NCBI RefSeq assembly: GCF_003148665.1
Contig: NZ_QGGQ01000005.1
Location: forward strand, 124,001 to 188,000
Direction of reading: 5' to 3'
Origin: Maribacter polysiphoniae
Lineage (GTDB): Bacteria > Bacteroidota > Bacteroidia > Flavobacteriales > Flavobacteriaceae
DNA: 64,000 nucleotides
The stretch's first letter is position 1; each line of letters begins with the position of its first letter. The notes below the pieces were generated by a model, which saw only the letters and a list, made by a program, of their open reading frames with translations, made no database searches and was not told the origin of the DNA. This document shows, piece after piece, positions 34,128 to 51,539 of the stretch. Made by a program: the position numbers and the translations under genes.

Positions 34128-34191
34128 GGTTTGTTATTTCGGGCATTCCTCTTCCTCCTGTTTGGGAAAAGCGCTTATCCATAACAATCAA

Positions 34192-34285: not shown

Positions 34286-34687
34286 ATGAAAATATTATTT
34301 ATAGAGGATGATACCATTGAAACCATGAAACTTCATAGAACGGTTTCTAAGTTACAGATGAGGTTTGATATTGTGGAGGCCAAAAATGGGGAGGAGGCAT
34401 TGGCGGTTTTAAGATCAGGGGATGAATTACCGGACATTATTTTATTAGACCTGAATATGCCTAGAATGAGTGGTATAGAATTCCTTAGAATTTTAAAGAA
34501 AGACGATAAGTTGAAATATCTTCCGACAATAGTATTGACTACCTCAGAGAATAGGGCCGATTTATTGGAATGTTATCGCATAGGAATTGCGGGATATGTG
34601 ATTAAGCCCTTGAAATATGCGGACTACGAACTGAAATTGCAGAAGGTATTGGACTACTGGAGTGTCAATGAATTGGTGAAAGCCTAA
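34286..34687 (+). CDS. Single-domain response regulator receiver
   Basis: A 133-residue receiver domain with no output domain. Acidic pocket Glu7-Asp8-Asp9, phospho-acceptor Asp55 (in ILLDLNMP), the Thr of TTSEN and Lys of IKPLKY are present, so it should be phosphorylated. It resembles Rcp-type receivers that interact with PAS/phytochrome kinases. It is the first of five signalling genes in a row and carries the shared direct-repeat promoter, which suggests feedback control of the pathway. Confidence 0.9.
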   Translation: MKILFIEDDTIETMKLHRTVSKLQMRFDIVEAKNGEEALAVLRSGDELPDIILLDLNMPRMSGIEFLRILKKDDKLKYLPTIVLTTSENRADLLECYRIGIAGYVIKPLKYADYELKLQKVLDYWSVNELVKA

Positions 34688-34764: not shown

Positions 34765-35307
34765 ATGAAGGGAATTGTTTTTACGGAGTTTTTGGAAATG
34801 GTCGAATCAAAGTTCGGACTGGAAACGGTAGATAACATTATTGAACAGACCAATCTGTCTTCTGAAGGTGTTTATACTTCTGTTGGGACCTATGATTTCA
34901 ATGAGATGGTTAGTTTGATAACCGGTCTCAGTGATGAGGTGAATATACCGGTTGATGATCTGATATACACTTTCGGGCTTTATCTTTTTACTGGTTTGGC
35001 CAATGCTCATCCCGAGGTGATAAAAAGTTATAATTCCCCACTAGGACTTTTATATTCAATAGAAGATCATATTCACGTTCATGTAAAGAAGTTATATCCA
35101 GATGCCGAACTTCCTACGTTCAAAATTTTGGATAAGACCGATACCTCCATTTCAATGATCTACTCCTCTTCACGGGGCCTTTACCGATTGGCCCATGGAT
35201 TAATCGAAAAAGCCTTTGAACATTTTAATGGGAGTGCGGATATTACGTATGAACTGATCAAGGAAGATGGGACAGAAGTGAAATTCAATATAACCCAGAA
35301 TGGATAA
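34765..35307 (+). CDS. H-NOX heme gas sensor
   Basis: A 180-residue heme-NO/oxygen-binding protein. It starts MKGIVF as usual, has the proximal heme ligand at the canonical position His102 (IEDHIHVHV) and the porphyrin-binding Y-x-S-x-R at residues 133-137. Aligned to the T. tengcongensis protein, the position of its oxygen-stabilising Tyr140 is Leu142 here, so I predict a nitric oxide sensor that does not hold oxygen. It overlaps the histidine kinase gene by 8 bp, so the two are almost certainly partners. Confidence 0.93.
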   Translation: MKGIVFTEFLEMVESKFGLETVDNIIEQTNLSSEGVYTSVGTYDFNEMVSLITGLSDEVNIPVDDLIYTFGLYLFTGLANAHPEVIKSYNSPLGLLYSIEDHIHVHVKKLYPDAELPTFKILDKTDTSISMIYSSSRGLYRLAHGLIEKAFEHFNGSADITYELIKEDGTEVKFNITQNG

Positions 35308-36892
35308 TAAGGAAGTTATCCTACTAAGGAAGGCACTAGACAGGCAAAAGAAAGCACGTGTTCAGGCAGAGAAGATCCTTGAACGGAAATCAAAGGATCT
35401 TTACGATGTGACATTGCATCTTAAACATGCCAATAGCAAGTTGGAAAATCTGTTGTCCGAGAAAACCTCGGAATTGGATGGTGTTTTTATTAATATCATA
35501 GATCCTTATGTAGTAATGGATCTTGCCTTCAATGTAATCAACATGAATTTGTCAGCAAAGGAGTTCTTGGGGTATGACCATACCAAGGAAACCATAAACT
35601 TGGAAAAGTTGGTGCATAAGGATTATATGGAATACACGATCAGTTCGTTCAGGTCGTTGTTAGAGCTTGGTACCCTAAAGAATTATAAGGCCAAGATCTA
35701 TGTAAAGGATGGATCCGAAAAATATGTTCAGATCAACTGTAGCCTAATCTATAATAAAGAACATCAACCTATAGCGGCACAAGGTATTATTCGGGATGTG
35801 ACCCGTGAAATGGAGATCAGCCATTTATTGACGGAGCAGAAAAGACAGCTGGATATTATTATAGAAAATTCGCCATTGAGCATTGCTTTGGTAGTAGCGA
35901 ATAAAATAGTAAAAGCAAATAACACCTTTAAGAATCTTTTGGGGTATTCGGACGCAGAACTTAAAAAATTATGTTTAAAAGATATTTCCTTTCCTGAGGA
36001 AAGGGAAGAGTCCAATAAACTAATGACCTTGATGGAATCTGGAAAACTTGATAATTTCTCGATTACAAAGCATTATGTACGCAAAGATGGCACCAGCCTT
36101 TTGGCCAAGACCTCGATAAACGCGGTTAGGGACGAACAAGGGGTGGTCGAGTATCAAGTAGCGATGATCGAGGATATTACCGAGCAAAGAAACCTTGAAC
36201 TTCAAAAAGAGAAATTAATGAAGGAATTGGAGGCTAGCAATCAAGGACTTCAGGAATATGCACATATTGTTTCCCATGATTTGAAATCACCCCTCCGTAG
36301 CCTTAGTGCACTTGCTACATGGCTAAATGAGGATTATAAAGAGGTTCTGGATGATAATGGGGTCTTTAATTTACAGATGATGCAAGAGCGCATCGAGGGA
36401 ATGGATAAACTTATTGACGGGATATTGAAGTACTCAAGTATCACGGCGGAAAACTTGGAGTATTCTTTAGTGGATTTTAACAAAATCATACATGATATCC
36501 GCGAAATAATATTTATTCCCAAGCATGTCAATGTGATTATCATGAATACATTGCCAACAATCAATGCCGATAAAACCAAAATCCACCAATTGTTCCAGAA
36601 TATTATCAGCAATGCGGTGGTGAATATAGAAAAGGAGGAAGGGGTTGTAGCGATAAGCAGTTTGGAGACCGATTCACATTGGCAGTTCAGTGTTAAGGAT
36701 AATGGCAAAGGAATTCCGAAGGAATACCATGAAAAAATATTCAAAATATTCCAATCGGTGGGAGATAAAGAAAGGTCTACGGGAATAGGATTGTCAATAG
36801 TAAAGAAGATAGTCGATCTTTATGAAGGGGAAATTTGGCTTGATAGTGCCATTGACGAAGGAACGACCTTCCATTTTACCATAAAAAAATAA
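35300..36892 (+). CDS. PAS-domain histidine kinase paired with H-NOX
   Basis: A 530-residue cytoplasmic kinase. Residues 5-58 are a long coiled coil, followed by two PAS domains (about 60-175 and 185-300). The phospho-acceptor is His326 in HIVSHDLKSPLRS; the ATPase domain (about 410-530) has the N, G1 (KDNGKGIP) and G2 (GIGLSIV) boxes. No membrane segment is present, matching a soluble gas-sensor partner such as H-NOX. The start overlaps the H-NOX stop by 8 bp. Confidence 0.93.
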   Translation: MDNKEVILLRKALDRQKKARVQAEKILERKSKDLYDVTLHLKHANSKLENLLSEKTSELDGVFINIIDPYVVMDLAFNVINMNLSAKEFLGYDHTKETINLEKLVHKDYMEYTISSFRSLLELGTLKNYKAKIYVKDGSEKYVQINCSLIYNKEHQPIAAQGIIRDVTREMEISHLLTEQKRQLDIIIENSPLSIALVVANKIVKANNTFKNLLGYSDAELKKLCLKDISFPEEREESNKLMTLMESGKLDNFSITKHYVRKDGTSLLAKTSINAVRDEQGVVEYQVAMIEDITEQRNLELQKEKLMKELEASNQGLQEYAHIVSHDLKSPLRSLSALATWLNEDYKEVLDDNGVFNLQMMQERIEGMDKLIDGILKYSSITAENLEYSLVDFNKIIHDIREIIFIPKHVNVIIMNTLPTINADKTKIHQLFQNIISNAVVNIEKEEGVVAISSLETDSHWQFSVKDNGKGIPKEYHEKIFKIFQSVGDKERSTGIGLSIVKKIVDLYEGEIWLDSAIDEGTTFHFTIKK

Positions 36893-36893
36893 C

Positions 36894-37211
36894 ATGGAGC
36901 AACCAAACTTATCATATATTAAGGAACTGGCTGGGGATGATATCGCTTTTGAGCGAAAATTCATTGATATCATTAAGCAGGAATTTCCTTTGGAAGTGGC
37001 CGAATACATGGGCCTAATAAACAAAGACCTACCTAGGTCGGCGGCGGAAACCGTACATAAATTGAAACATAAGTTCAATATCCTGAGTATGGAGAAAGCC
37101 TATGTATTCTCAGTAAACTACGAAGAGGAACTGCGACTTGGACATACTGAATTACATCCGAAATTCACCGCGATTTTAAATCATATAGAAACCTACCTAA
37201 AAACAATTTGA
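36894..37211 (+). CDS. HPt phosphotransfer protein
   Basis: A 105-residue histidine phosphotransfer protein. His55 lies in HKLKHK, fitting the H-x2-K-x-K HPt signature within a helical bundle. It starts 1 bp after the kinase stop. An HPt between kinase and response regulators implies a branched phosphorelay that can serve several receivers: the stand-alone receiver, the LytTR regulator and possibly the receiver-GT2 fusion. Confidence 0.88.
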   Translation: MEQPNLSYIKELAGDDIAFERKFIDIIKQEFPLEVAEYMGLINKDLPRSAAETVHKLKHKFNILSMEKAYVFSVNYEEELRLGHTELHPKFTAILNHIETYLKTI

Positions 37212-37213
37212 CA

Positions 37214-37924
37214 ATGAATTGTATCATTATAGATGACGAAGCTGCCGCTAGGGCCATAGTTGTACAATTGTGTTCCAAAGTTCCTGAACTAGATGTAATT
37301 GATGAATTTTCAAGTGCGATAGATGCTATTAAATTTCTGAATCAGCAAACTGTCGATCTTATTTTTTTGGATATTCATATGCCTGGATTCAGTGGTATCG
37401 ATTTCGTTCAAACCCTAAAGGATCCACCCAAAATTATACTGACCACTTCAGATACCAATTTTGCGATTGCCGCCTATGAATACGAGGCCATAGTGGATTA
37501 TCTGGTAAAGCCTATGACCTTGGGGCGATTTGAGAAATCAATCCAGAAAGTGAAGAATACGTTGTCAAAACAACCAAAATCCGAGAATAGGGAAAGCGCT
37601 TCTTCAGGGGCAGGGGAAGATTTGTATATTAATATCGATAGGAGGCTTATCAAGTTAAAGTTCAATGAAATTCTATTGATTGAGGCCAAAGGGGATTATA
37701 TTGAAGTGAAGACCGAAAAAGAGTCCTATAGGGTTCATAATACCTTAAAAAAAATCAAGGAGAAATTGCCGGAAGGGATTTTCTTGCAGACGCACCGATC
37801 CTTCATCATTAATTTTACAAAGATTATCGATATAGAGGATAATAGTGTGCTTATTGAAAAGAACGTAGTGCCCATTAGCCGTTCAAACCGTCCAGAATTA
37901 ATGCGACGACTTAATCTATTATAA
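37214..37924 (+). CDS. LytTR-type response regulator
   Basis: A 236-residue regulator with a receiver domain (acidic pair Asp7-Asp8, phospho-acceptor Asp53 in IFLDIHMP) and a LytTR DNA-binding domain (about residues 136-236; FNEILLIEAKGDYIEVKT and FLQTHRSFIIN are typical). ATG 37214 is chosen over TTG 37208. LytTR proteins bind pairs of about 9-bp direct repeats, and such pairs occur upstream of four genes within 15 kb, making this the prime candidate for their regulator. It closes the signalling run. Confidence 0.92.
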   Translation: MNCIIIDDEAAARAIVVQLCSKVPELDVIDEFSSAIDAIKFLNQQTVDLIFLDIHMPGFSGIDFVQTLKDPPKIILTTSDTNFAIAAYEYEAIVDYLVKPMTLGRFEKSIQKVKNTLSKQPKSENRESASSGAGEDLYINIDRRLIKLKFNEILLIEAKGDYIEVKTEKESYRVHNTLKKIKEKLPEGIFLQTHRSFIINFTKIIDIEDNSVLIEKNVVPISRSNRPELMRRLNLL

Positions 37925-37937
37925 ACGTTCCAATATG

Positions 37938-40007
37938 CTACTCTTCCAGTTTAGTATGAAAGATAGGTTTCTTGGTCAATAACCATTTTAATTTTACTCC
38001 AAGTTCAGTAAACTCGAATCCTGCGGCAGTGGCCGAGGCTATATTACTGTATTTTCCATAAAGATTTGCACTTAAACGCTTCGATATTTGGTGCTGTAGA
38101 CTCGCTTCCGTCCTAAAAATAGCAGTTTGGGGATCTTGCTCGACTTGCTGGAAACCTGTTGCAGCACTGGCCATGAAATTTGTTTTTTTTGAAAATTTCC
38201 CACGTACATCAATAAAAATCTCTATCGCTTTGTATTGGTCTGGACTAAAGTATATGGTGGGTATCTGGTCTTTAAAGGTTATATACTGAAAATTGACCCC
38301 CGTTTTTAAGGTAGGTTTTCGCAGAAGGGTATAATACAGCGATGTAAATATAAGATTACGGGTGTTTGTATCGGTCTGTTGTGTGTGCATCAATTGGGTA
38401 TACCAACCTAGATTAAAGTTCGTACCTAAATTGTAATCCAAGCTATAATGGTTCATCACAATTTCACGCTCGATCAAGTCCGCATTAAAATTTTGTACTT
38501 CGCGCTGGTAACCAAGGTTTAAATTTTGGAGTTTGTAGGGTTGCATCTGTAATTTGATGTCGAGCACCGGTTGTGTGTAGGCCGTTGTCATAAATCTGGA
38601 GTTGTTGAGTCCGAATATGGTCTTTAGTGTCGTTTTTGGGAGCAGTTTGTATTCCAAACCGGCCAAAAGCACATGGGAATTGGCCTTATTCAATGTTACC
38701 GTGTTTTCAGTGGTTCTATACAGATAGGAGAATGTAGTTCGGAATTTTGTGGAAAATGAAACATCTACCTTGGTGTTGGTATAAAACGCAATGTTGTTGC
38801 CATTGTCAAAAGTGTAAGCCGCATGTTCCTCAATGTTCGGGGTATGCATGAGGTTCAATTTTTCGATAAATCCCATGGCATCCTTTTGGTTTTTATAGAT
38901 TTCCAAGGTTTTAAAGGCAGCATGGTAGGCATTTTCGATTTGATCTGCGGCAAATAAGGCATTGGCCTTTCCTAGATTGCCGTCGAAGGAGGTGCTATCC
39001 TGGGTTAAAATCGCATCGTAACTTTCGATACTTATCTTTGTGTTTGAGGTATATAGGCCTAAGGTTGCTTTCAGGGCAAGTATCCATTTTCGCTGGGGAT
39101 TTGTGCTTTCCAAGCTATCGATTTGCTCTTGGGCCGTCTTGAATTTCCGATTCCAAATCAAGGCTTGGACATAACGGTCATAGGTACGTTCGGTAAGTTC
39201 AGGATCCTTCAATTTAAGTACTTTTGACTTGGCTATACGGGCTATGTGAAGTGCTTTTTTGTCTTTTTCCCCAATATGCGCTGCCAAGGAAATTCCGTTT
39301 AACGCCGTAATTGAATCTTTTGGACTAGTAGCATATCGCAGATAGGTGGTTTTTGCACTATCCACTTCCTTGGAGATCAAATACACATTGGCCAGATTCA
39401 ACAAGGCATCCTTATCTTCCGGGAAATCCCAAAAAATGTCTTTCAATAGTTGTTTTCCTTGGTCATACAACTGCTGATTCACAAATTGGTTGGCATAACC
39501 CAATCTCATGTATTTTTTTGAAATTGTGGCACTTTCATTTTTTGGCTGGATACTCAAGGCCTTATCAACCCAAAGTAAGGCTTCCTTATATTCCTTTAGA
39601 TTACTTAAAGTATTTGCGTAGCCCAGAACTGCCCCAAAATTATTTGGATAATCGGCAACTAGGTCAGCATATAAAGGTTTTGCCTTTTCGTACTGTTTGT
39701 CCCATAATAAGGATTCATTATAATTGATTTGTATTTCAAAGTCCTCCGGATAGGTTTCCAACATAGTTGCAAATAATGCAATGGCTTTTTGGGGTTCGCC
39801 ACTTAAACCTATCGCCCTGCCATAACATATTTGGGCAGTTTTGTTTTCGGGGTCCGATTTTAAATAAGACTCGAAAAAAATCCCAGCAGCCGCAAACTGT
39901 CCTTTTTCCAATAACTGAAATCCGGCCTCCATGGAATTTTGGGCAACACCTGAAAAAATATTCAGGAAGAAAAATACGGAAAGGGTAAAATAGTATTTAT
40001 AAGTCAT
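37938..40007 (-). CDS. TPR protein with outer-membrane beta-barrel (YaiO/PgaA/PelB-like layout)
   Basis: A 689-residue exported protein. After a signal peptide (ending GVAQN) about residues 20-390 are helical TPR repeats (for example YANTLSNLKEYKEALLWVDKALSIQP). From about residue 400 to the end are alternating amphipathic strands typical of an outer-membrane barrel of the YaiO type. TPR-barrel proteins export exopolysaccharides in Pel, cellulose and PNAG systems, and here it lies beside a flippase and glycosyltransferases. ATG 40007 is preferred to TTG 40010. It converges on the LytTR gene. Confidence 0.82.
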   Translation of the reverse strand: MTYKYYFTLSVFFFLNIFSGVAQNSMEAGFQLLEKGQFAAAGIFFESYLKSDPENKTAQICYGRAIGLSGEPQKAIALFATMLETYPEDFEIQINYNESLLWDKQYEKAKPLYADLVADYPNNFGAVLGYANTLSNLKEYKEALLWVDKALSIQPKNESATISKKYMRLGYANQFVNQQLYDQGKQLLKDIFWDFPEDKDALLNLANVYLISKEVDSAKTTYLRYATSPKDSITALNGISLAAHIGEKDKKALHIARIAKSKVLKLKDPELTERTYDRYVQALIWNRKFKTAQEQIDSLESTNPQRKWILALKATLGLYTSNTKISIESYDAILTQDSTSFDGNLGKANALFAADQIENAYHAAFKTLEIYKNQKDAMGFIEKLNLMHTPNIEEHAAYTFDNGNNIAFYTNTKVDVSFSTKFRTTFSYLYRTTENTVTLNKANSHVLLAGLEYKLLPKTTLKTIFGLNNSRFMTTAYTQPVLDIKLQMQPYKLQNLNLGYQREVQNFNADLIEREIVMNHYSLDYNLGTNFNLGWYTQLMHTQQTDTNTRNLIFTSLYYTLLRKPTLKTGVNFQYITFKDQIPTIYFSPDQYKAIEIFIDVRGKFSKKTNFMASAATGFQQVEQDPQTAIFRTEASLQHQISKRLSANLYGKYSNIASATAAGFEFTELGVKLKWLLTKKPIFHTKLEE

Positions 40008-40122
40008 CAAACAAGTAAGGTTAATACTACAAAAACATAACGGTCAAGTCATGTTATTATTAGCATGATTTTGGTTTTATAAAGGTATTGTAGGCATTCC
40101 CAAACTGGAAGTTCGATTTTGT

Positions 40123-40222: not shown

Positions 40223-41461
40223 ATGAACACATTAAGAATAGTATTAAAAAAAGTTTCCCCAGAGCAAATGTTCATGGCCAGTGTACTCCTGGTAAATGGG
40301 GGGAATTATATCTACAACCTGATTTTAGGCCGATTGTTGGGGCCTGAATCATTTGCTGATGCAGCACTCTTGATAACCTTATTATTGGTATTGTCCTTCG
40401 TGGGAATGACTTTTCAACTGGCAACGGCAAAGTTCGCCGTTGTTTTTTCAGGAAGTGAATGGATGAACTTTAGGAACCTTATCTATAGGTATGCCATTAT
40501 TTTTGGAATGGTTACAGGGGGCTTGGTTGTTTTCTTTTCAAAGGAAATGCAGTTGTTTTTTAAAACCCAAACGCCATATATGTTTGTTGTCTTTGGATTT
40601 GGAATACCCCTATATTTTTTAATGAGCGTTAATCGTGGGTCATTTCAAGGAAACTTGGAGTTTAAAAATCTATCAGGTACCTATCAAACCGAAATGTGGA
40701 GTCGATTGATAATTACTTTGGCCTTGCTTTTGTTTATTCCAATGGAACCGGCTTTCATTGTAGCTATAGGTATCTCCCTATCTTTCCTGTTTGGTTTGAT
40801 ACCTTCAAATTTTAAGGGATTGTCATTTTCCAAGCCGATCATATTACAACCACAAAGCTCTAAACGTGTTTCCCAATTCATCATTTTGACCGCTTGTTAT
40901 GAATTCACACAGATTATTATTAACAATAGCGATGTACTCTTGGTAAAGCATTATTTTGATGAGATGGATGCGGGATTATACGCATCCTTGGCGCTTATTG
41001 GTAGGGTGGTCTACTTCGTGGCATGGATGTTCGTGATGTTATTGTTGCCAGCCGTGGTCCAAAAACAAAAGGATGGTGATCCTACCGCGCCTATCTTGTT
41101 TAAATATGTTGGTTATGTAGGACTTTTGTCGGTATCTATAGTGGCTGTTTGTTATCTGTTTCCCGAACTGATCATTACGCTGATGTTTGGTGATGCCTAT
41201 GTGTCGGTGGCAGGACTTTTATGGCAATATGCATTGGCGACATCACTTTTTGCAATCTCCAATATTTTCGCATATTATTTTTTGTCTTTGGATCATTACA
41301 TCCCTGTAATACTATCTGGTGTTTTGGGGTTGTCACAAATCTTTTTAATCGTGTTGTTTCATGAGAACCTATTCAATGTTGTGCAGATGCAAATAATTTC
41401 AATGGCCATTTTGTTGGTAGTTCAACTTATCTATTTTATGAAAAAGAGAAATAGCCTATAA
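40223..41461 (+). CDS. Wzx/PelG-like polysaccharide flippase
   Basis: A 412-residue membrane protein with about twelve helices and the start pattern NGGNYIYNLILGRLLGPESFADAALL of the oligosaccharide flippase superfamily. It would move lipid-linked or growing glycan across the inner membrane. It is divergent from the TPR-barrel gene and 323 bp upstream of a GT4 gene; both plus-strand genes carry the same direct-repeat promoter. Confidence 0.85.
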   Translation: MNTLRIVLKKVSPEQMFMASVLLVNGGNYIYNLILGRLLGPESFADAALLITLLLVLSFVGMTFQLATAKFAVVFSGSEWMNFRNLIYRYAIIFGMVTGGLVVFFSKEMQLFFKTQTPYMFVVFGFGIPLYFLMSVNRGSFQGNLEFKNLSGTYQTEMWSRLIITLALLLFIPMEPAFIVAIGISLSFLFGLIPSNFKGLSFSKPIILQPQSSKRVSQFIILTACYEFTQIIINNSDVLLVKHYFDEMDAGLYASLALIGRVVYFVAWMFVMLLLPAVVQKQKDGDPTAPILFKYVGYVGLLSVSIVAVCYLFPELIITLMFGDAYVSVAGLLWQYALATSLFAISNIFAYYFLSLDHYIPVILSGVLGLSQIFLIVLFHENLFNVVQMQIISMAILLVVQLIYFMKKRNSL

Positions 41462-41784: not shown

Positions 41785-43020
41785 ATGAAATTAGCAATTG
41801 TAACGGCGTACCCACCGAGTAAAGTAACCTTAACCGAATACGGATATCATTTGGTCAAACATTTTAGGTTACAGGAAGAAGTAAGTGAGATTATTTTGAT
41901 CACCGATAAGACCGAAGGTGAAAAAGATCTGTCCTTCGAAGGGGATGGATGTAAAATCACGGTTAAGGAATGTTGGAGCTTTAATAGCTACAAAAACCTG
42001 TGGGGTATCACCAATGTTATTTTAGAAACCAAACCGGATGCCATTTTGTTCAATTTGCAATTTTTGAAGTTCGGGGATAAAAAGATACCGGCTGCATTGG
42101 GGCTTATACTGCCATTGATATGTAAGTTGAAAGGCATACCCACTATTTCCTTATTGCATAACATATTGGAACAGGTAGATCTGGAAAATGCAGGGATTAC
42201 CAAAAATAAGTGGTTACAAAAAGCCTATAATTTTATTGGAAGCACATTGACCCGATTTGTTTTGTCATCAGATATTGTAGCAGTGACCATTAGTAAATAT
42301 GTTGGAATCTTAGAGGGAAAATACAAAGCACGGAATGTTGCCTTGGTACCACATGGTTCTTTTGATACGCCACCAGAACCCGATTATTTATTACCAAAAG
42401 GCCCCAAGCAGGTTATGGCATTTGGGAAATTCGGTACGTATAAGAAGGTCGAAATTATGATAGAAGCTGTTGAGCTGATACGGCTGCGTACCCAAGAGGA
42501 CATTGAAATCGTAATAGCGGGTACTGATAGTCCAAACACCCCTGGTTATTTGGAAGGGATGAAGGCGAAATATAGCCATGTTTCCCAATTGAGGTTTACG
42601 GGCTACGTTGCAGAAGAGGATGTTCCGGTTATTTTTGCGGATAGTTCGGTTGTGGTTTTTCCATATACATCGACAACAGGAAGTTCGGGGGTTTTGCACC
42701 AGGCAGGTAGTTATGGTAAGGCTGTGGCACTTCCTGATTTGGGGGATTTAAGTATTTTGGTTCGTGAGGAAGGTTACAACGGAGCATTCTTTGACCCGGA
42801 AAGTACGGAATCCTTGGCGGATGCAATACAAGGTGTGTTGACTGATGATTCTAACCGTATCCATTTGGGGCAAACCAATTATAAGGCTGCTTGTTCCCTG
42901 CCAATGAGTTCAATAACCAAAATGTATATAGATTATTTTGAGGCCATACGGTTTGCCAAGTCAGGCGGACTTTCATTAAACTTACTCAAAAAATTAGAGC
43001 ATCTAGAAAATGAGGTTTAA
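41785..43020 (+). CDS. GT4-type glycosyltransferase
   Basis: A 411-residue GT-B enzyme without membrane helices. The C-terminal half holds FGKFGTYKKVEIMIEAVELI, the sugar-nucleotide region VVFPYTSTTGSSGVLHQAGSYGKAVALP and the conserved acidic residue region before FDPESTESLADAI. It would add sugars to a glycan in the cytoplasm, comparable in role to PelF. It is a single-gene unit with the direct-repeat promoter upstream and a bidirectional terminator downstream. Confidence 0.85.
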   Translation: MKLAIVTAYPPSKVTLTEYGYHLVKHFRLQEEVSEIILITDKTEGEKDLSFEGDGCKITVKECWSFNSYKNLWGITNVILETKPDAILFNLQFLKFGDKKIPAALGLILPLICKLKGIPTISLLHNILEQVDLENAGITKNKWLQKAYNFIGSTLTRFVLSSDIVAVTISKYVGILEGKYKARNVALVPHGSFDTPPEPDYLLPKGPKQVMAFGKFGTYKKVEIMIEAVELIRLRTQEDIEIVIAGTDSPNTPGYLEGMKAKYSHVSQLRFTGYVAEEDVPVIFADSSVVVFPYTSTTGSSGVLHQAGSYGKAVALPDLGDLSILVREEGYNGAFFDPESTESLADAIQGVLTDDSNRIHLGQTNYKAACSLPMSSITKMYIDYFEAIRFAKSGGLSLNLLKKLEHLENEV

Positions 43021-43090: not shown

Positions 43091-44635
43091 TCATTCTTTG
43101 TTTTTTAAAGTCAAATACTTGAAGGCAGCTTTTTGTTTTCCTTCTATATCCATAAAACCAAAATACTTCTGCCGTTGTTTGCGCCAAGGTAATCGCCCAA
43201 CTACCCCAGTGGGGATATGATCAAAATCATGCATGGTCCAAAAAAGATAAGGAAGGTTTTCATTCTTTAAAGTAACCTGCATCTTTTTATAATATTCAGC
43301 CTGTCTCTCTTCGGAACCATTGAATATATTCCATATACCACTATAGGAAGAATAACCATATTCTTGTAGTACCAATATTTTATTGGGTATCGCCTGTCTT
43401 ACTTTTTGATAGGCTTGGTTGAAATCGGATACTTCCCTATAATAATGGAATGATACGAAGTCTACATGGTCATTCAATTGAATGGCAGCTTCCGGACAGG
43501 ACCAGCCTATGGTCACAGGATGTCCATGGTCCCATCGCTTTATGTTACCGGCCATTTGCTGTAGCCATGCGAGCACTTTTTCTTTCCCCCGGGATTCAAA
43601 GTCCAAATCAGGTTCATTTTTAATATCCCACGCCAAGATACCGTCATGGTCTTTGAAAGTCGTTACGATTTGTTCGGCATGCCTATTGGTCAAGGTCCAA
43701 TCTTGGATACTATAATCCCCATAAAAATCGAAAAGGGTTACAACCACTTGTAGTTTGTGTGCCACAGCGAGGTCTAGGGTTGACCTTAGTTTATCGAGTT
43801 TCCCCAAATCCATATTTGCTTTCCCGAAGTCTTTATAGGGCACGAAAATACGAATGGTATTGAGCCCCATATCGCGAATTGTCTGGAAGTCATCCGCTAT
43901 TGTGTTTTCCTGATAATTCGCCCCGAACATATCCCAAGGGCTATCTTTAGGATAGTAGTTTACGCCCTTGCAATTGGAAATTGCAGGATATTCTTCTTGT
44001 AAGGGAGTTATTTTTTCCATTGACTTTTCCGTATTGACAGGAACCTCTTTCATGTGGCGTATTCGCCAAAAACCATCTTCCAAAAGCATCATAATCTTAA
44101 ATGAACTCGTATGGTTTTGTTTGGTGACCAATTTTTGGTCTTTGTAGATTTCGGTATAGGTCTGTACATGATTATCCGTAAAAACCACTAGTTTGCCATC
44201 AGCACTATAAAAATTGAGTTCCGGGTGATGTTCAAGGCTAGTCGTTTTCAAATGGGTCCCGTTAGCTTTATTATGGTCGATGATTCTGTATATTTTGACG
44301 CGCATACTATCGGTAAAATAATCGGCAATGCCATAGGGGTCGTTGTTGGCATAGGCCTGGTTTCGAACATGCCAGGCACTTAGATAGTCTTCTTCGATTT
44401 TCTTCAAGTTTTGTGCTTCCATAGGCCTACCTTCATTAGCGACATTCGTCCAAGTTATTTTGGGGAGATAAATGTCCTCAAAGGCAGATTCAACATGGAG
44501 GATTGAGGATTTATCAGCTCCTGTGTTGAGATAGGATAAGACCGAACTGATTCCAAAGAGCAATAGGGCGTTCACACCCAAAAAGCTGAGAATCAAACCT
44601 GCACGATATATGTTTTTGTTCAAGCCTTTTTTCAT
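43091..44635 (-). CDS. Membrane-anchored glycoside hydrolase with NTF2-like domain
   Basis: A 514-residue protein: one N-terminal membrane helix (residues 11-35), an NTF2-like domain (about 75-200) and a GH5/GH2-type TIM barrel (about 220-510). The two catalytic glutamates are probably Glu341 (DIKNEPD) and Glu425 (VLQEYGYSS). Anchored in the inner membrane and facing the periplasm, it could trim or transfer the polysaccharide during export, as PelA or BcsZ do. It overlaps the lipoprotein gene by 4 bp and is the last of three co-transcribed genes. Confidence 0.82.
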   Translation of the reverse strand: MKKGLNKNIYRAGLILSFLGVNALLLFGISSVLSYLNTGADKSSILHVESAFEDIYLPKITWTNVANEGRPMEAQNLKKIEEDYLSAWHVRNQAYANNDPYGIADYFTDSMRVKIYRIIDHNKANGTHLKTTSLEHHPELNFYSADGKLVVFTDNHVQTYTEIYKDQKLVTKQNHTSSFKIMMLLEDGFWRIRHMKEVPVNTEKSMEKITPLQEEYPAISNCKGVNYYPKDSPWDMFGANYQENTIADDFQTIRDMGLNTIRIFVPYKDFGKANMDLGKLDKLRSTLDLAVAHKLQVVVTLFDFYGDYSIQDWTLTNRHAEQIVTTFKDHDGILAWDIKNEPDLDFESRGKEKVLAWLQQMAGNIKRWDHGHPVTIGWSCPEAAIQLNDHVDFVSFHYYREVSDFNQAYQKVRQAIPNKILVLQEYGYSSYSGIWNIFNGSEERQAEYYKKMQVTLKNENLPYLFWTMHDFDHIPTGVVGRLPWRKQRQKYFGFMDIEGKQKAAFKYLTLKNKE

Positions 44636-45858
44636 TTGAGCACTACAGTTATGTTTTTGGTTATTCCGGCTGATTTTATTTGTAAATGATAAATCCCGTT
44701 TTCAAAAAAGTCAGGGGGTAATCTAAATTTTGCCAAACCGTTTTTGGAAGTGGTCATTTTGGTTTCCAACAATTGACTTTGGGAATTATAAATAGCCAGT
44801 TGGATTACCAAGCCATCTGGAATATCCTGGTTCATAAAACTTTTTATCGGTCCTACGAATACCGTTCTCTTGTCTTCCGGGAAACTGATGGTATAATCCT
44901 TAACCGCTGCTTCAAAATCTATGGTAATGGTATTGCTTTTTGCAATCCCTGTAATATAGGCGGTTACTTTCCATGTTTGTTCTTCAACAGGGTGTAAAAG
45001 TTTTGCCGTTGCAATACCATTCAAGGTGCTACCTGAAGTTTGGAGTAAATTACCGGTTTTGTCTTCAATCAGAAAGGAAACCAAGGTTCCGTCACTTATG
45101 ATGTTGTTGAATTGATCGGTAATGACAGAGGACGAAAAGGTGATGATTTGATTGCCATCGGCATATTGGTGGTCCCTTTTGGAGGTGATGGTGAAATCAA
45201 TGGCGTTTGAAGGATAAACGAGGGTAGTAAGTTCTTTGGAATCCGTATGGTTACAGGAAGCGGTGACAAGTATCCTACCCGCTTTTGCGGTTGTGCCAAT
45301 CTTGGTCCAGGCCATTGAATTCTTGATTTCAATTTCATTTTCGAAAATAGTTTCTTTAAACTGATGCTTAACGGTTATGTCAGTTCCATCTGCGAAAGTA
45401 TTGTCATAAATATCCGTTGGGACGATAACAAACATAGAGAAGTCAATATTTCCAGCGGTTATACTTCTAGGGCCTAAATATGATTCGATCAGTGTTTCTT
45501 CTGTTGTGTTTGGGGCTATTTGTAGGGTTCCCGAAATTGATTTTTCTCGGGGTGTTACAAATTCCCAGCGACAAATCCCGGCTTTTTGGGAATAATCAGG
45601 GGGCATTTGAAATTCCAGTAGTCCCTCTTTCATTACAGGTTCGAGAAGGGAAGAACCGAGAGCATTCCTTACAACAAGTGCGCTACCTGTTTTTTGATTG
45701 GATTTGAATCTTAATGTAATGGTGTCACCTGCATTATAGTTGGTCTGTTTTGTCAATAACAGGGAAGCCTGGGTGCTGGGTGCTTCAAGCTTGGGCGTTT
45801 CAGGGGAGCACCCTTGGGTCATAATGACAAGCCATACTATGTAAATTGTCTGTCTCAA
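44632..45858 (-). CDS. Lipoprotein with Ig/invasin-like domains
   Basis: A 408-residue lipoprotein starting at TTG 45858, the only start that keeps the signal peptide; lipobox MTQGC with Cys at residue 17. The mature part consists of about four beta-sandwich domains, two of them with the invasin-like pattern DQFNNIISDGTLVSF and YDNTFADGTDITV. It probably works at the periplasmic side of the outer membrane in the polysaccharide machine. It lies 1 bp after the GT-C-like gene and overlaps the hydrolase gene (ATGA). Confidence 0.78.
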   Translation of the reverse strand: MRQTIYIVWLVIMTQGCSPETPKLEAPSTQASLLLTKQTNYNAGDTITLRFKSNQKTGSALVVRNALGSSLLEPVMKEGLLEFQMPPDYSQKAGICRWEFVTPREKSISGTLQIAPNTTEETLIESYLGPRSITAGNIDFSMFVIVPTDIYDNTFADGTDITVKHQFKETIFENEIEIKNSMAWTKIGTTAKAGRILVTASCNHTDSKELTTLVYPSNAIDFTITSKRDHQYADGNQIITFSSSVITDQFNNIISDGTLVSFLIEDKTGNLLQTSGSTLNGIATAKLLHPVEEQTWKVTAYITGIAKSNTITIDFEAAVKDYTISFPEDKRTVFVGPIKSFMNQDIPDGLVIQLAIYNSQSQLLETKMTTSKNGLAKFRLPPDFFENGIYHLQIKSAGITKNITVVLK

Positions 45859-45859
45859 A

Positions 45860-48800
45860 TTATTTGGGATTTCCTATGTAACTATTGACTTCAAACTTGA
45901 TAAAACCAAAACCATCGCCTCCATATTTCTGCAGCTGGTTTTTACCATGGTCATTATCTCTTAAGGGAATCATTTTTTTCGCTATTTCAGAATTCGGCAA
46001 TCCATTCACAAAACAAAATTCCAAACTGGAATTGATAAGGTCTATTCTAGAGAGTCCCATGGTTTGATAATCAAAAAATTGTTTTCTTTGGATACGTACA
46101 CCTTCCGTCAAAAATTTATGGTCTACCCAAAGAAGCTCTTTATCGTTGTTATAATAAGAAATCAACAATTGGGGAATAGTGACTTCTTGAATACCTGAAT
46201 TGAACAGTACCCCTTCAATGCGACCATCGGTAATGTGTATCTCTTGTATGGCCACTTCCTTGTACAAATCGGTGTTAGCCACATTTCCTGCACATTGCAG
46301 ATTGAATTTAGTTGGCTGTTCTTCCAAATTAACGGGGGTGAATTCATCAGGGTCGAAAGTTGCAGGCATATTTTCCTCTGTGGAGGACCAGGCAATACCT
46401 TCAAAATTTATCTTAAAGTTGGTGGTTTCCTTCGGCATTAGTTTGTGCTTAATGTGGTATTTTGCATTGTAATTTGCAAGCTCGACATCATCATTGTTAT
46501 ATAGAGTTCCCTTTAAAACGACGTCGGCCGGGACATTATCAACATTTTGTAATTCGCCTATAATTGAAAACCTCCCGTTAAGTTTTACCAGTTTGGCTGA
46601 TAGTATTTCTAGAACAGGCTGTTTTAGAACATCCTCATGATGTGTCTGTTGGGTGGTAATCCTTCGCTTGCCGTGATTGTAAAAGGTGGTTCCACTGGAA
46701 GTGAAAAGCTGATCGGGAGGTAGGTCATTGTTGAAACCCAGTGGTTTTATATACCATTTCCCTCGTTTTTTTACCAGTTCGTGATAATGTTCTTTGTTTA
46801 CTTTCTCCAATGGGGTGATGTATCGTGTGCCTACGTGTACCTTAGCACTGTTCTCGGTTTTTTCCAATACCGTAATGCCAATGGAATCCAATTTTGCATA
46901 GGAGCTTAAAATGCCATCGGTTACCGAAACTTCCAACATATATTGCGATAAGGTTACATCGCTTTCAGGATTTAAATAAGAATATGCTTTCTGAAACTCC
47001 TTGAAGTCCATGGCATCATAATAGGCATGTACAACATTTTCCGGGGAAAGCTGGGTATTGTTCTTTAGATAGAATTCATATCCTCCATAAGAAAGACAGA
47101 GTAGCACAAAGCTTGCCCAAATATGATTGACGGTCACTAATTTTTTTGAAAACCCATGGTACGGGATAGTATACCTTAAATAAGGGGGGTCGGGTATTTT
47201 TTTTGATTTCAATACCCTGTACCAGACCAATTGAATATTAATGATGAATGCCAAAATAATCGTCAGGATCGGAATAATGCCCCACATGATCTTTAAAAAA
47301 GTGGGTACGTCTTCTTTGGGTAAAATAGAGGGTACGGGGGGTACATTCAATTTTTCCCACACCATAATGCCATTTTCCAATTGTTGCAATCGTTGCCAAC
47401 CACAGAAGTACAATATGGGATCGTAGAATTTGTCATTGGAGAAGATATATTTAAGGTTGTATTTCTCAGGTACGGTTAAAAATTGTTGTAATGATCCGAT
47501 ACCCTCAACGCCCCTGAATTTTGAGTTTTCCAGTCGTTCGATTGCCCGAGTTGTTAATTCCGGCAAGCGTCGTGCGGAATGGTAGTTCCCGTCTACGGTC
47601 ATTGCGTTGGTTTGGGCAGAGAGCCATGCCATTTGGTCTCCAAACCCCAAGGGCAAATACCTCCACTGGTCGTGTTGATCTTGGTTCAGGAAATTAACAA
47701 TGGGTAGCATCTTTATTTTTGATGGTTGCGACGGTCTAAAATAACCGAGACTCATGGTGAAAATGACCATAAACAATATACCACCGACTAATAATCCACC
47801 TAATATTCTATGATACACCGCGCCAAACCGATTTTGTAAGTTGGTTTTTAGATCACCTTCGACCATGCGATAGGTGAATTCACCCAACAAGGGTAACGCC
47901 ATAATGGTTGCCCAAAGGGTAAAGCGGTCCAAGGTTAATATATTGAAAGCCGTTTCCCCCAATATTTTTAAAGGAATCGGTGTGGTACCACCTGTTCCTA
48001 AGATGGTCAACATGGTAATTGATAATCCGAAAAACAGGTAACGTTTACTAAAATATCTGTAAAAGATATAAGGCATAATAAAAAGTAGAATTCCCCAAGG
48101 AATCATAAAAAAAACCAATCCTGATGAGGTAACCTCAAGAAAATTATCCCTGGATCCATGGGGTATGGGTACCTGTGTTATGGGATTTTTTTTTGAATTT
48201 ATCCAATAGGGGAGAATGCAGACCACAATCAACACCAATGAGGAAGATCCAAACCCGACGATACGCCAAAAGAGTTTTTTGAAAGTTTGTATAAAGACCT
48301 TGAACGTTATTGTCTTATTGGTCTTTACTCGGTCCTTTGAGGCATCCATTATGACCATTCCAATTAAGGGAAAGACAAAGAACACCATACCAAAAATGGG
48401 GGTCACATGATGTGAGGTAACTGTTACCGCAATGAGGGAAAGACTAGTGGCTAAATATTTCCATTTACCTGTTTTGATCCAGGAATAGATTTCGGGTAAA
48501 GCATGTAAAAGCACAGATAATCCAATGATACTGGGCAATTGACCAAAAATATGCAATGTTTCAACAAATGTCGATGAGAAAACAGCCATTAGGGCTGTAT
48601 ATCCGGCTACTTTTCGGTTTCCGGTCATTAATAATCCAAACCGATAAGCCCCCGTAATAAAAAGAATAATGCCGATCAAGGCTACTGTGAACATACCAAA
48701 TTTGAGTCCACCAATATAGGATAGCAAAGCAATTGATTGATGGACCAAGGGGGGATAAGCCTGAACTGTAAACCCCGTGTACCACCTATAATCCCACGGT

Positions 48801-48946
48801 TCAAACCAACTATTGGCATAATGGTCGGCAAAGAATAAATGGATCAAAGCATCATAGGTGTATTCAAGAGTAAAGAATATGCTTGAACCGTGAAAAGCCA
48901 CCCCTATGAAAAGGGCTAAAATAAGTAAGATATTGGTTCTATTCAT
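45860..48946 (-). CDS. Large GT-C-like polytopic membrane protein with NTF2-like domain
   Basis: A 1028-residue protein. Residues 1 to about 420 contain roughly eleven helices with the early acidic loop pattern of polyprenyl-phosphate-sugar-dependent GT-C enzymes (FFADHYANSWFEPWDYRWYT, close to the PTPS-related membrane domain). A periplasmic segment (about 430-545), two more helices, an NTF2-like domain (about 645-760) and a beta-rich tail follow. I infer a polymerase or transferase using lipid-linked sugar. It heads the three-gene unit and faces the receiver-GT2 fusion, which could make its donor. Confidence 0.7.
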   Translation of the reverse strand: MNRTNILLILALFIGVAFHGSSIFFTLEYTYDALIHLFFADHYANSWFEPWDYRWYTGFTVQAYPPLVHQSIALLSYIGGLKFGMFTVALIGIILFITGAYRFGLLMTGNRKVAGYTALMAVFSSTFVETLHIFGQLPSIIGLSVLLHALPEIYSWIKTGKWKYLATSLSLIAVTVTSHHVTPIFGMVFFVFPLIGMVIMDASKDRVKTNKTITFKVFIQTFKKLFWRIVGFGSSSLVLIVVCILPYWINSKKNPITQVPIPHGSRDNFLEVTSSGLVFFMIPWGILLFIMPYIFYRYFSKRYLFFGLSITMLTILGTGGTTPIPLKILGETAFNILTLDRFTLWATIMALPLLGEFTYRMVEGDLKTNLQNRFGAVYHRILGGLLVGGILFMVIFTMSLGYFRPSQPSKIKMLPIVNFLNQDQHDQWRYLPLGFGDQMAWLSAQTNAMTVDGNYHSARRLPELTTRAIERLENSKFRGVEGIGSLQQFLTVPEKYNLKYIFSNDKFYDPILYFCGWQRLQQLENGIMVWEKLNVPPVPSILPKEDVPTFLKIMWGIIPILTIILAFIINIQLVWYRVLKSKKIPDPPYLRYTIPYHGFSKKLVTVNHIWASFVLLCLSYGGYEFYLKNNTQLSPENVVHAYYDAMDFKEFQKAYSYLNPESDVTLSQYMLEVSVTDGILSSYAKLDSIGITVLEKTENSAKVHVGTRYITPLEKVNKEHYHELVKKRGKWYIKPLGFNNDLPPDQLFTSSGTTFYNHGKRRITTQQTHHEDVLKQPVLEILSAKLVKLNGRFSIIGELQNVDNVPADVVLKGTLYNNDDVELANYNAKYHIKHKLMPKETTNFKINFEGIAWSSTEENMPATFDPDEFTPVNLEEQPTKFNLQCAGNVANTDLYKEVAIQEIHITDGRIEGVLFNSGIQEVTIPQLLISYYNNDKELLWVDHKFLTEGVRIQRKQFFDYQTMGLSRIDLINSSLEFCFVNGLPNSEIAKKMIPLRDNDHGKNQLQKYGGDGFGFIKFEVNSYIGNPK

Positions 48947-49030
48947 AGGTGACTATCGTAGGAAAATATAACAAGGTAAAGATAGATATATTGTGGTATT
49001 ACCTCATTATCAACCATCGATGGCTTAAAA

Positions 49031-49100
49031 CCATTCGACTATAGAAAAGCCCCATTGACCTTTTACTGCCGAAAATGGAAGTTGGTTGTTTCTACTTTCG
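49031..49100 (+). promoter_or_regulatory. Promoter with 21-bp-spaced direct repeats, receiver-GT2 fusion gene
   Basis: Repeat 1 CCATTCGAC (49031-49039) and repeat 2 CCATTGACC (49052-49060) start 21 bp apart. The -7 candidate TACTTTCG is 49093-49100 (one mismatch), its G again 69 bp from the repeat 1 start. The 219-bp gap is shared with the divergent GT-C-like operon. Confidence 0.62.
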
Positions 49101-49165
49101 CCTCAGAAATCATTAAAACCAAATTGATTTTTTTACCATTTATCTGAAACATTAAAACTTAACCT

Positions 49166-50308
49166 ATGAAAATTTTGACCATTGACGACCAGCAGCTGAT
49201 ATTATTGTCTGTAGAAAAAAGACTTACAGAACAGGGCTATGAAGTAGAAACCGCCAATTGTGGCCAATTGGGCATCGAATTGTTCGACACTTTTCAACCG
49301 GATTTGGTTATTGTCGATATCAATATGCCAGTTATGTCCGGTTTGGAAGTCGTGAAACATATCCGTGTCAATAAAAAATCCCACACACCTATTATGGTAA
49401 TGTCCGGAAACACCAATGAAAAGATAATCGTTGACGGATTTGACTTGGGGATTGACGATTATATGAAAAAACCGGTCAGTTTAGATGAGGTAGTAGCCCG
49501 TGTAAAACGCATATTGGGGAATACAGCGAAACAAGCAATTATCAGAAAAGAGGACAATACCCAAATGTTGCAAAAATATTGTGTGGGTGTTGTCATTCCT
49601 TGCTATAATGAGGAAGATCGCTTGTCTAGTGTATTGTTCCAGGAATTTGCACATAAAAACCTTGGATATCATTTATGTTTTGTAAACGATGGCAGTACGG
49701 ACAATACCTTGGCTGTTTTGGAAGACCTGCGAAAAGGTAATGAAGATACCATCAGTATCTATAATTGTGAAAAAAATGGAGGAAAGGCCGAAGCGGTTCG
49801 CCAAGGGATACTTCATTTATCCAAAGATCCACAATTGGATTATATAGGATATCTCGATGCCGATCTTTCAACAGATTTTGAAGATTTTGATGAGTTGGTC
49901 CAAACGCTTGAAAATTCTGATTTCAAGATAGTAAGTGGTTCTAGGATCAGTAGGATGGGTGCAGACATCACCAAGGAATCTGCCCGAAAAATAATCAGTA
50001 TGACCATTAATTTCATCATTCAAAAGATTTTGGGAATGCCTTTTAAGGATACGCAATGCGGAGCTAAGATCATGGATCGTGAGATTGCGTCCTTAATGTT
50101 CGATAAAAAGTTCATTACCCGCTGGTTGTTTGATGTTGAGATCTTCATGCGCATGCGTAAATATTACGGCAGGGAAAAAGTACAGGGTTTGATTTGTGAG
50201 CAACCTTTGAAACGTTGGATACATGCTGACGGTTCCAAGTTATCCATGAAAGATTCCATAACGATTGTAGGACAATTGGCAAGAATCGCTGTACAGTACA
50301 ACACCTAA
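49166..50308 (+). CDS. Receiver domain fused to DPM1/ALG5-like GT2 glycosyltransferase
   Basis: A 380-residue fusion. Residues 1-118 are a complete receiver (Asp7-Asp8, phospho-acceptor Asp51, Ser80, Lys102). Residues from 139 are a GT2 enzyme of the polyprenyl-phosphate sugar type: VVIPCYNEE, NDGSTD, donor motif Asp231-Ala-Asp233 and the DTQCGAK signature seen in DPM1/ALG5. No C-terminal membrane helix is present. The enzyme is thus likely to be switched by phosphorylation while it loads sugar onto a polyprenyl phosphate. It is divergent from the GT-C-like gene. Confidence 0.9.
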   Translation: MKILTIDDQQLILLSVEKRLTEQGYEVETANCGQLGIELFDTFQPDLVIVDINMPVMSGLEVVKHIRVNKKSHTPIMVMSGNTNEKIIVDGFDLGIDDYMKKPVSLDEVVARVKRILGNTAKQAIIRKEDNTQMLQKYCVGVVIPCYNEEDRLSSVLFQEFAHKNLGYHLCFVNDGSTDNTLAVLEDLRKGNEDTISIYNCEKNGGKAEAVRQGILHLSKDPQLDYIGYLDADLSTDFEDFDELVQTLENSDFKIVSGSRISRMGADITKESARKIISMTINFIIQKILGMPFKDTQCGAKIMDREIASLMFDKKFITRWLFDVEIFMRMRKYYGREKVQGLICEQPLKRWIHADGSKLSMKDSITIVGQLARIAVQYNT

Positions 50309-50438: not shown

Positions 50439-51539
50439 TTACAAACGCTTTACCTGTAAAGCATGAAAAGCATCGGCCTGAAGTTTAAGGAGTTCTTCGG
50501 CTTTTTGTTTTTTATGGGCATATACGGCTTCTTCCTCTTCGATTTCGTTATAGATTTTAGTGTTCAAAGCAATATCGGTAGCCAAAATCTGTTCGCGTTG
50601 TTGTACTTTTTGGGCTACCCAGGTTTTTAGAATACTTTCCTCTTCTTCCTGTTTTATGTCATATTCACCCTTAGGGGCCAACAATTTGGCTATAATCGGC
50701 GAAGTCTCAATAGCTAGGAACAAAAGAAAAATGAAGAATGAGGGAAACCAAGGTAACTTACCAAGGGCATTAATACGAGCCATGAGTCCATCAAAACCGT
50801 CGATAATGGGTTGTGAGGTATTTACAGCGTTATTGTAATCGGTGTTTAAAGCTGCAATTTGCGATTCCAATGTTGCTATTTTTTCGGCGTTGGCAGTCTT
50901 CAATTGTTGCAATTCGGCCAAGGCGGCATCGTGTTTTTCCCGTTTTTCACCATAAACAGGGCCTTTTCCCAAAAGACCTGTTCCTGCGGTGCCCTCGGCT
51001 TCACTAATATAGGTGTCGTAAAGGACATTGGTTTCGGCTTCCTTTGTTGATACTTCAGTTTTTAACGTCGTGATATCCTGATTCAATTTTTCGATCAAAG
51101 GGGTGTATTGCATTGCTATTTGATCTTTGTTGGCCAACGTGAGTTCGTTTTTTTGTTCCAATAATACCTGGTTGATTTCCTTTTCAAAAATCTTCATTTC
51201 CAAAGGTTTTGAAATGACTACGGCAATTATCACGGCCAAGATAATACGAGGTGTGGCTTGTAGTAGTTCATTGGCAAAACTATTGCGTTTCTTTATGGTA
51301 GAAACGATAAAACGATCCAAATTAAAAATCAACAGCCCCCAAATAAGTCCAAAAAAGATAGCCGTATAGAGGGTGTCAAAAACGGTGAACAGGGCATAGG
51401 CGCTAGCCAAAAAAGCCATTACAGCAGTGAAGAACACCGTGGCGCCGATACCGGCATATTTATTTTGTTCACCTTGTGAACAGGTTTGGAGTAAGGTGGC
51501 ATCTGCCCCCGAGCAGAGGATAAAAAAGCGTTGTAACAT
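50439..51539 (-). CDS. DUF4407 family membrane protein with coiled coil
   Basis: A 366-residue protein with two helices near the N-terminus (about 30-80), a third near 95-112, a long coiled coil (about 115-225) and a fourth helix (about 240-265). The sequence order and NKYAGIGATVFFTAVMAFLAS start are those of DUF4407. Function unknown. The last eleven codons are duplicated at 34092-34127. Confidence 0.88.
   Translation of the reverse strand: MLQRFFILCSGADATLLQTCSQGEQNKYAGIGATVFFTAVMAFLASAYALFTVFDTLYTAIFFGLIWGLLIFNLDRFIVSTIKKRNSFANELLQATPRIILAVIIAVVISKPLEMKIFEKEINQVLLEQKNELTLANKDQIAMQYTPLIEKLNQDITTLKTEVSTKEAETNVLYDTYISEAEGTAGTGLLGKGPVYGEKREKHDAALAELQQLKTANAEKIATLESQIAALNTDYNNAVNTSQPIIDGFDGLMARINALGKLPWFPSFFIFLLFLAIETSPIIAKLLAPKGEYDIKQEEEESILKTWVAQKVQQREQILATDIALNTKIYNEIEEEEAVYAHKKQKAEELLKLQADAFHALQVKRL

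Follow-up and report, generated by a model that had tools for sequence, protein, structure and literature searches.

A conserved receiver-glycosyltransferase fusion as a candidate phosphorelay target at an exopolysaccharide locus of Flavobacteriaceae

A gene of Maribacter polysiphoniae joins a receiver domain to a glycosyltransferase, which raises the question of whether the loading of sugar onto a lipid carrier may be placed directly under the control of a phosphorelay. The gene lies in a window of 64,000 nucleotides (assembly GCF_003148665.1, contig NZ_QGGQ01000005.1, positions 124,001 to 188,000 of the forward strand), where an open reading frame at 49166-50308 (+) encodes 380 amino acids, a receiver followed by a GT2 domain (REC-GT2). 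It forms the end of a 16-kb array, consisting of a stand-alone receiver, an H-NOX protein, a PAS kinase, an HPt-like protein and a LytTR regulator, and then of an exopolysaccharide (EPS) block (Table 1). A first-pass annotation of these letters had proposed that sugar loading is switched by a phosphorelay, that the divergent GT-C-like gene is the natural user of the product and that the free HPt protein could be the phosphodonor; the H-NOX sensor and the conserved EPS block were not part of that finding. Judging from sequence comparisons, we would put at about 0.6 the probability that a phosphorelay controls REC-GT2, as an ArnC/DPM-like, membrane-peripheral polyprenyl-phosphate glycosyltransferase, via its own receiver.

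Table 1. Features of the array, with positions in the 64,000-nucleotide window
Feature	Position	Strand	Basis
Stand-alone receiver, proposed Spo0F-like relay intermediate	34286..34687	+	Response_reg 5.5e-21
H-NOX haem-NO sensor	34765..35307	+	HNOB 2.1e-39; Y133-x-S135-x-R137
PAS-PAS histidine kinase	35300..36892	+	HisKA 4.6e-7, HATPase_c 2.8e-24, PAS_9 3.7e-21
Free HPt-like protein, proposed phosphodonor (His55)	36894..37211	+	VHKxKHK motif
LytTR response regulator, alternative HPt target	37208..37924	+	LytTR 6.1e-19, Response_reg 7.1e-18
TPR protein, C-terminal outer-membrane beta-barrel (BcsC/PgaA-like exporter)	37938..40010	-	TPR_19 2.6e-22, BCSC_C 5.4e-7
Flippase-like membrane protein, tentative	40223..41461	+	10 segments over hydropathy cut-off; synteny
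GT4 glycosyltransferase	41785..43020	+	Pfam Glyco_trans_1_4 2e-18
GH5-like glycoside hydrolase	43091..44635	-	Pfam Cellulase 6.1e-12
Big1-like surface protein, T9SS sorting-tail-like end	44632..45858	-	Big_1 6.5e-5 (below cut-off); TIGR04183 1.1e-5 (over cut-off)
GT-C-like membrane glycosyltransferase, 1028 aa, with NTF2-like and beta-rich parts	45860..48946	-	VIA-align of model
Divergent intergenic region, GT-C gene / REC-GT2 gene	48947..49165	.	Divergent in 37 of 53 loci of relatives
Receiver domain, aa 1-117 of REC-GT2	49166..49516	+	Asp51 phospho-acceptor, acidic pair Asp7/Asp8, Ser80, Lys102
Variable linker of REC-GT2, about aa 118-139	49517..49582	+	pLDDT <50 at aa 120-136; entropy 2.79 bits
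GT-A (GT2) polyprenyl-phosphate-type glycosyltransferase domain	49583..50308	+	Pfam PF00535; without transmembrane segment by hydropathy

REC-GT2 is a genuine protein. The same domain order was found in 62 of 299 Flavobacteriaceae genomes, evenly drawn from a larger group (three of the 62 matches end at or near contig ends), and an assembly or annotation artefact, a concern of the first-pass annotation, is therefore rejected. A sample of 345 genomes from the phylum, searched at 1e-60, gave 13 matches, of which 12 were full-length fusions and one was a GT2 domain alone; 11 of these fusions were from the same family (the window genome included) and one from another family (G448). The fusion is likely to be nearly confined to Flavobacteriaceae. 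The G448 locus has an EPS block with kinase, HPt and LytTR genes and no H-NOX gene within the stretch covered. In L205, L206 and L207 of the phylum sample, two copies of REC-GT2 lie a few kilobases apart in some genomes, the second copy of L207 being divergent (36%).

The receiver is recognised by Pfam Response_reg (aa 3-114, 1.4e-26) and matched a solved receiver in Foldseek (2a9o, TMt 0.93). Asp51, Ser80 and Lys102 were each present in 142 of the 142 distinct full-length homologues gathered in this analysis, a set which may include the window genome's own copy, and Asp7 and Asp8 each in 141; the phosphorylation residues read from the single sequence are thus all kept. Among the five receiver helices, the lowest entropy was that of alpha1 (0.88 bits versus 1.03-1.87), the usual partner-docking helix of receivers. 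Such conservation is what a functional receiver that keeps its partner over time would be expected to show. The linker has the top entropy among the elements scored (2.79 bits for aa 119-136), and an AlphaFold2 model from a 38-sequence alignment (mean pLDDT 79.6, pTM 0.59) has two domains, with low confidence for the linker between them (aa 120-136). A VIA comparison of the whole model was uninformative for the GT2 part because the receiver fills the rows, the best 50 being all receivers. In its domain make-up, with an intact receiver covalently joined to an enzyme domain, REC-GT2 is a putative response regulator with an enzymatic output. Additional stand-alone receivers, 52-57% identical to that of REC-GT2, occur within the REC-GT2 locus in L131, L154 and L067; these might act as a phosphate sink or represent a split copy.

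The GT2 part matched Pfam Glycos_transf_2 (PF00535) at aa 142-308 (4e-25). Its nearest solved relatives by sequence are GtrB (1.6e-10), ArnC (8.6e-10) and DPM synthase (2e-5), and it aligned with the ArnC structure over the whole domain (TMt 0.54-0.58, 239-248 alignment columns). The motifs VNDGS, DAD, QCGAK and FDVE, which we take to be of the DPM1/ALG5 type, are present and near-invariant among the homologues. A GT-A fold with a DXD motif and a closest similarity to ArnC, GtrB and DPM synthase are thus both found, and the initial assignment to a polyprenyl-phosphate-type enzyme is supported by these nearest solved relatives. Among NCBIfam models, ArnC came first (2.3e-15), just ahead of PgaC/IcaA (5.9e-15), with both far below their cut-offs. 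Hydropathy windows of 19 residues over the whole of REC-GT2 gave a maximum of 1.21, and none above 1.6, so that no transmembrane segment was detected by this measure. ArnC and GtrB have C-terminal transmembrane helices, and soluble members exist in the wider group. Membership of REC-GT2 in the ArnC/GtrB subfamily was dropped for this reason; we describe it only as working like these enzymes. REC-GT2 is probably an enzyme that loads sugar onto a membrane lipid carrier for a surface polysaccharide.

The likely user of such a product is encoded next to it. The GT-C-like and REC-GT2 genes are divergent in 37 of 53 named-relative loci of at least 18 kb that hold the GT-C gene (from the best 80 of 482 relatives), with a gap of 141-372 bp (median, 217). 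Neither Pfam (nothing at E 0.001) nor the sequences of solved structures in the PDB (best, E 0.96) identified the neighbour. VIA-align of its model gave STT3 (Z 15.6), AglB (15.2) and ArnT (15.1), followed at lower scores by AftA (12.1) and DPY19 (11.7), for a weak model (mean pLDDT 61.6) and against a typical best Z of 14 for helical models without a clear match. Rows 1-15 (Z 13.2-15.6) were STT3, AglB or ArnT entries only; for three translocon entries among the rows, we presume that the chain aligned is STT3. NTF2-like rows covered aa 628-746, behind the GT-C part. Plain Foldseek placed penicillin-binding proteins, transglutaminases and others at the top and STT3 at rank 45. By comparison of this moderate model, the neighbour appears to have a GT-C transmembrane fold and to resemble GT-C transferases such as STT3 and ArnT. 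It is likely that REC-GT2 and this neighbour form an ArnC/ArnT-like pair.

The distribution of the two genes bears on this pairing. A GT-C match (one fragment included) was found in 59 of 62 fusion genomes versus 17 of 237 others, in Fisher tests which, for this and the other co-occurrences in the 299 genomes, ignore shared ancestry. Full-length GT-C was present in 75 of the 299 genomes, 59 with the fusion and 16 with only a receiver-less GT2; a 76th genome (G201) has a GT-C fragment and neither GT2 form. No GT-C match was found in three fusion genomes (G077, G113 and G117). The proposal that GT-C uses the product is thus strengthened by the fold and by the presence of GT2 in 75 of 75 full-length GT-C genomes, and is weakened by these three. 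The same three genomes would fit a GT2 that transfers sugar straight to a growing glycan or another acceptor, with no carrier loading, as would the closeness of the PgaC/IcaA and ArnC scores for part of the domain and the lack of a transmembrane segment to hold polyprenyl phosphate. We consider direct transfer quite unlikely, as the structural match to ArnC spans the whole domain, the sequence ranking is GtrB, ArnC and DPM synthase, and no full-length GT-C genome is without a GT2, fused or receiver-less.

The pair belongs to a conserved EPS block. Neighbourhoods were sampled as the best 80 of 482 relatives (Maribacter, Zobellia, Cellulophaga, Arenibacter, Muriicola, Tenacibaculum and others), and six EPS genes were scored (>90 bits): TPR-barrel, flippase, GT4, GH5, Big1 and GT-C. 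In the 57 named-relative loci of at least 18 kb from this sample, 42 had all six genes, 11 had five and four, all from Aquimarina, had none. The flippase-like protein matched no Pfam family at E 10 except for one chance row, and the TPR-barrel protein matched the PgaA model far below its cut-off (4.9e-10). The TPR-barrel, flippase, GT4 and hydrolase genes seem to us to recall pelB/G/F/A. A Pel-type operon was nevertheless rejected because Pfam and NCBIfam gave no Pel-named family for the flippase or GT4 and because the window genome had no match to GGDEF or PilZ. GGDEF was also absent from all 61 other fusion genomes, and was detected in 8 of 14 control genomes. The diguanylate cyclase of c-di-GMP-controlled EPS systems (Pel, Bcs, Pga) was thus found in none of 62 fusion genomes. 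Together with the receiver built into REC-GT2 and the frequent nearness of its gene to a nitric-oxide sensor and a phosphorelay, this suggests that slime production may be switched directly, without the usual messenger c-di-GMP.

Two possible traces of rearrangement flank the array. A 36-bp direct repeat occurs at 34094-34129 and 50441-50476 of the window (35/36 identical), and a 28-residue remnant of a DUF4407 C-terminus (34095-34178) immediately precedes the relay, with an intact DUF4407 gene beyond the block on the other side. Possibly the entire 16-kb array was inserted or duplicated here; the repeat arrangement was not found in L111-L170 or L190-L208, only some of which extend upstream of the relay. 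In L169 (G288; about 9.1-10.5 kb), the relay is retained and the EPS block has been lost, except for a fragment of GT-C and a receiver that lacks the GT2 part.

What could phosphorylate the receiver? The relay genes lie farther upstream of the EPS genes in the window and in many relatives, and the stand-alone receiver lies upstream of H-NOX in relatives whose loci extend that far. The H-NOX protein combines an HNOB match with the motif Y133-x-S135-x-R137, presumably the haem motif, which is invariant in eight aligned sequences. The VHKxKHK motif of the HPt-like protein is invariant in 16 aligned sequences, yet no Pfam HPt model recognises the protein; a free HPt nearby is thus supported by its motif and not by its family. 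In many loci the relay holds a second kinase-like match, which makes the proposed sensor less certain. HPt (E up to 1e-20) was found in 61 of 62 fusion genomes versus 55 of 237 others, and H-NOX in 56 of 62 versus 47 of 237. HPt and the fusion share a contig in 54 genomes, no more than 40 kb apart in 53 of them; for H-NOX these numbers are 52 and 51. Four of the six fusion genomes in which H-NOX was not found are 73-84% complete, and G123 is a single contig and 99% complete.

The domains, the key residues and their conservation, the synteny and the lack of GGDEF matches are observed; from them we infer the following pathway, whose phosphotransfer steps, NO input, sugar, polymer and direction of switching are all conjectural. 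Binding of NO, or of another haem ligand, to H-NOX would alter the PAS kinase, whose phosphate would pass to the stand-alone receiver and then to the free HPt. From HPt, two terminal receivers would be served: that of the LytTR regulator, for a slow, transcriptional response, and that of REC-GT2, for a fast, post-translational one. Phosphorylation of Asp51 would set the activity or the recruitment of REC-GT2, which would load sugar onto the lipid carrier; the GT-C protein would spend the lipid-linked sugar outside the membrane, building or decorating an exopolysaccharide to be exported by the TPR-barrel. A change in phosphorylation may thus change the supply of lipid-linked sugar to GT-C and, in turn, exopolysaccharide synthesis. 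For NO as the input of the relay, we see about an even chance.

Receiver-less orthologues provide a ready natural comparison, as they lie beside the same GT-C gene. All 16 GT-C genomes with only a receiver-less GT2 have HPt and 15 have H-NOX, with the relay adjoining the block in 10, at a distance of about 30 kb in one (G019) and on a different contig in the other five. The relay thus accompanies the EPS locus itself, and its linkage is no proof that HPt serves REC-GT2. Because HPt and H-NOX persist in these genomes, HPt very probably has targets other than REC-GT2, with LytTR being the obvious second one. Service to REC-GT2 alone is rejected on the same grounds and by the HPt tree, in which genomes with and without the receiver are mixed, a detached group aside. 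A GT2 tree of 60 sequences with the receiver and 20 without implied one change (SH-aLRT 96); this was a quick tree with long branches, excluding matches of fewer than 150 residues, and as its root is not fixed, gain and loss of the receiver are both possible. Of the 16 receiver-less GT2 proteins encoded next to GT-C, 12 have -AA at the C-terminus, in most cases following an extended tail (L165, L166, L168, L171-L176, L178, L180 and L181), compared with only 4 of 142 fusions. ALAA is also the ending of the tmRNA tags identified in six genomes. The -AA ending is possibly an ssrA-like degradation signal, which would give the receiver-less branch a different form of post-translational control.

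The persistence of HPt and H-NOX where GT2 lacks a receiver could mean that the relay acts on the EPS locus via LytTR only, while the GT2 receiver is phosphorylated by another kinase or by small phosphodonors. LytTR immediately adjoins HPt in the window and is adjacent in most relatives showing both, which fits this explanation. It is made doubtful by four Aquimarina genomes, in which the GT2 beside GT-C is receiver-less and REC-GT2 lies elsewhere. In all four, the detached REC-GT2 gene directly adjoins an HPt gene, in convergent orientation (L103 was inspected in full). Three of these detached loci have no LytTR match at E 1e-6 within about 10 kb on each side, and the match in the other (L108) is weak (34%) and lies 8.8 kb from where the fusion begins. 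Each of the four genomes has two HPt matches at E 1e-8; the second lies in the relay near the block in three genomes and, in G633, on a contig other than that of GT-C. In the HPt tree, which has few columns, the detached HPts cluster separately from those of the block (SH-aLRT 94 and 99). As the two genes adjoin without the EPS block, their adjacency argues for a direct functional link between REC-GT2 and HPt. The proposed role of HPt as phosphodonor is thus favoured by co-occurrence, nearness and the Aquimarina pair, but its retention in 16 of 16 receiver-less genomes counts against it.

Control of REC-GT2 through its receiver may have a parallel at other loci with this relay. Ten genomes of the family were chosen in which the relay is present and the fusion and GT-C are absent. 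In six of the ten loci, LytTR is followed by a stand-alone receiver and then by a fusion of a receiver-like part to a Bac_transf sugar-1-phosphate transferase, with two sugar-nucleotide genes between LytTR and the stand-alone receiver in L193; the remaining four are without this arrangement. After the fusion come genes that resemble those of L194 for efflux-type (OEP), Wzz-like, Wzx-like (no match in L199) and Wzy-like proteins, where the names Wzx and Wzy are ones we assign from appearance. The stand-alone receiver and this fusion of a receiver-like part to a WcaJ/WbaP-type transferase head another polysaccharide locus (L194:8955-10567, L199:8702-10345, L193:8330-9960), downstream of the H-NOX/HPt/LytTR relay. 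With receiver-like fusions in both locus types, one relay is therefore found near two unrelated lipid-carrier enzymes.

Scans of three Bac_transf fusions gave Bac_transf at about 1e-52 in all, whereas Response_reg was found at 1.1e-8 in L193, at 2.8e-4 (below cut-off) in L194 and not in L199. These scores bear on the possibility that the receiver of REC-GT2 is a docking or dimerisation module, through which the soluble GT2 would reach the membrane or GT-C, with phosphorylation of minor importance for catalysis. The hydropathy of the fusion (maximum, 1.21) would suit such a module, with a range of 1.03-2.06 in the 20 receiver-less GT2 proteins examined. We regard it as unlikely, since a pure docking module would not need the full retention of Asp51, Ser80 and Lys102, and since this retention contrasts with the Bac_transf fusions, only one of three having Response_reg over the cut-off. 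A broader idea, which we hold tentatively and at somewhat less than even odds, is that Flavobacteria replaced c-di-GMP by an NO-sensing four-step phosphorelay. Its terminal receivers would sit on enzymes that load sugar onto lipid carriers, independently in two unrelated families (REC-GT2 feeding GT-C, and a receiver-like part with a WcaJ/WbaP-type transferase by a stand-alone receiver), forming a general EPS switch at the first membrane step.

Control of exopolysaccharides is known mostly via transcription or c-di-GMP. If phosphorylation does control REC-GT2, a two-component system would act directly and post-translationally on the synthesis of lipid-linked sugar, which would offer a testable explanation for the switching of biofilm matrix, possibly by nitric oxide, in Flavobacteriaceae in which no GGDEF was found. 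A search of the literature, covering few subscription papers, found nothing on a fusion of receiver and polyprenyl-phosphate glycosyltransferase or on exopolysaccharide regulation by H-NOX in Flavobacteriia. REC-GT2 shares with ArnC, GtrB and DPM synthase the GT-A fold, the DXD-type DAD motif, the nearest similarity in sequence and structure and, in its partner gene, a GT-C-like protein; unlike ArnC and GtrB, it has an N-terminal receiver and no membrane segment by hydropathy. Spo0F-Spo0B is a four-step phosphorelay, with which the genes described here share a kinase, a stand-alone receiver, a separate phosphotransferase and terminal receivers, here in one array. However, a small HPt-like protein stands here in the place of Spo0B, one of the proposed terminal receivers belongs to an enzyme, and the order of transfer is the one we infer. 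Receivers on enzymes are known, and a fusion of receiver and BcsA-like glycosyltransferase from Methanobacteriaceae (MTH_548) is among the response regulators with enzymatic output (PMC5847659). MTH_548, like REC-GT2, joins a receiver to a glycosyltransferase, but is archaeal and cellulose-synthase-like (PF13641), and the available part of that source does not mention an H-NOX, HPt or GT-C context (PMC5847659). In Vibrio fischeri, HahK is inhibited by H-NOX with NO and likely signals through SypF, by way of its HPt, to the syp exopolysaccharide genes (PMC8738867). There too, an exopolysaccharide locus is under the control of H-NOX, a histidine kinase and HPt, the output being the induction of syp genes (PMC8738867). 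Here, by contrast, no GGDEF was found and one proposed terminal receiver is part of the biosynthetic enzyme.
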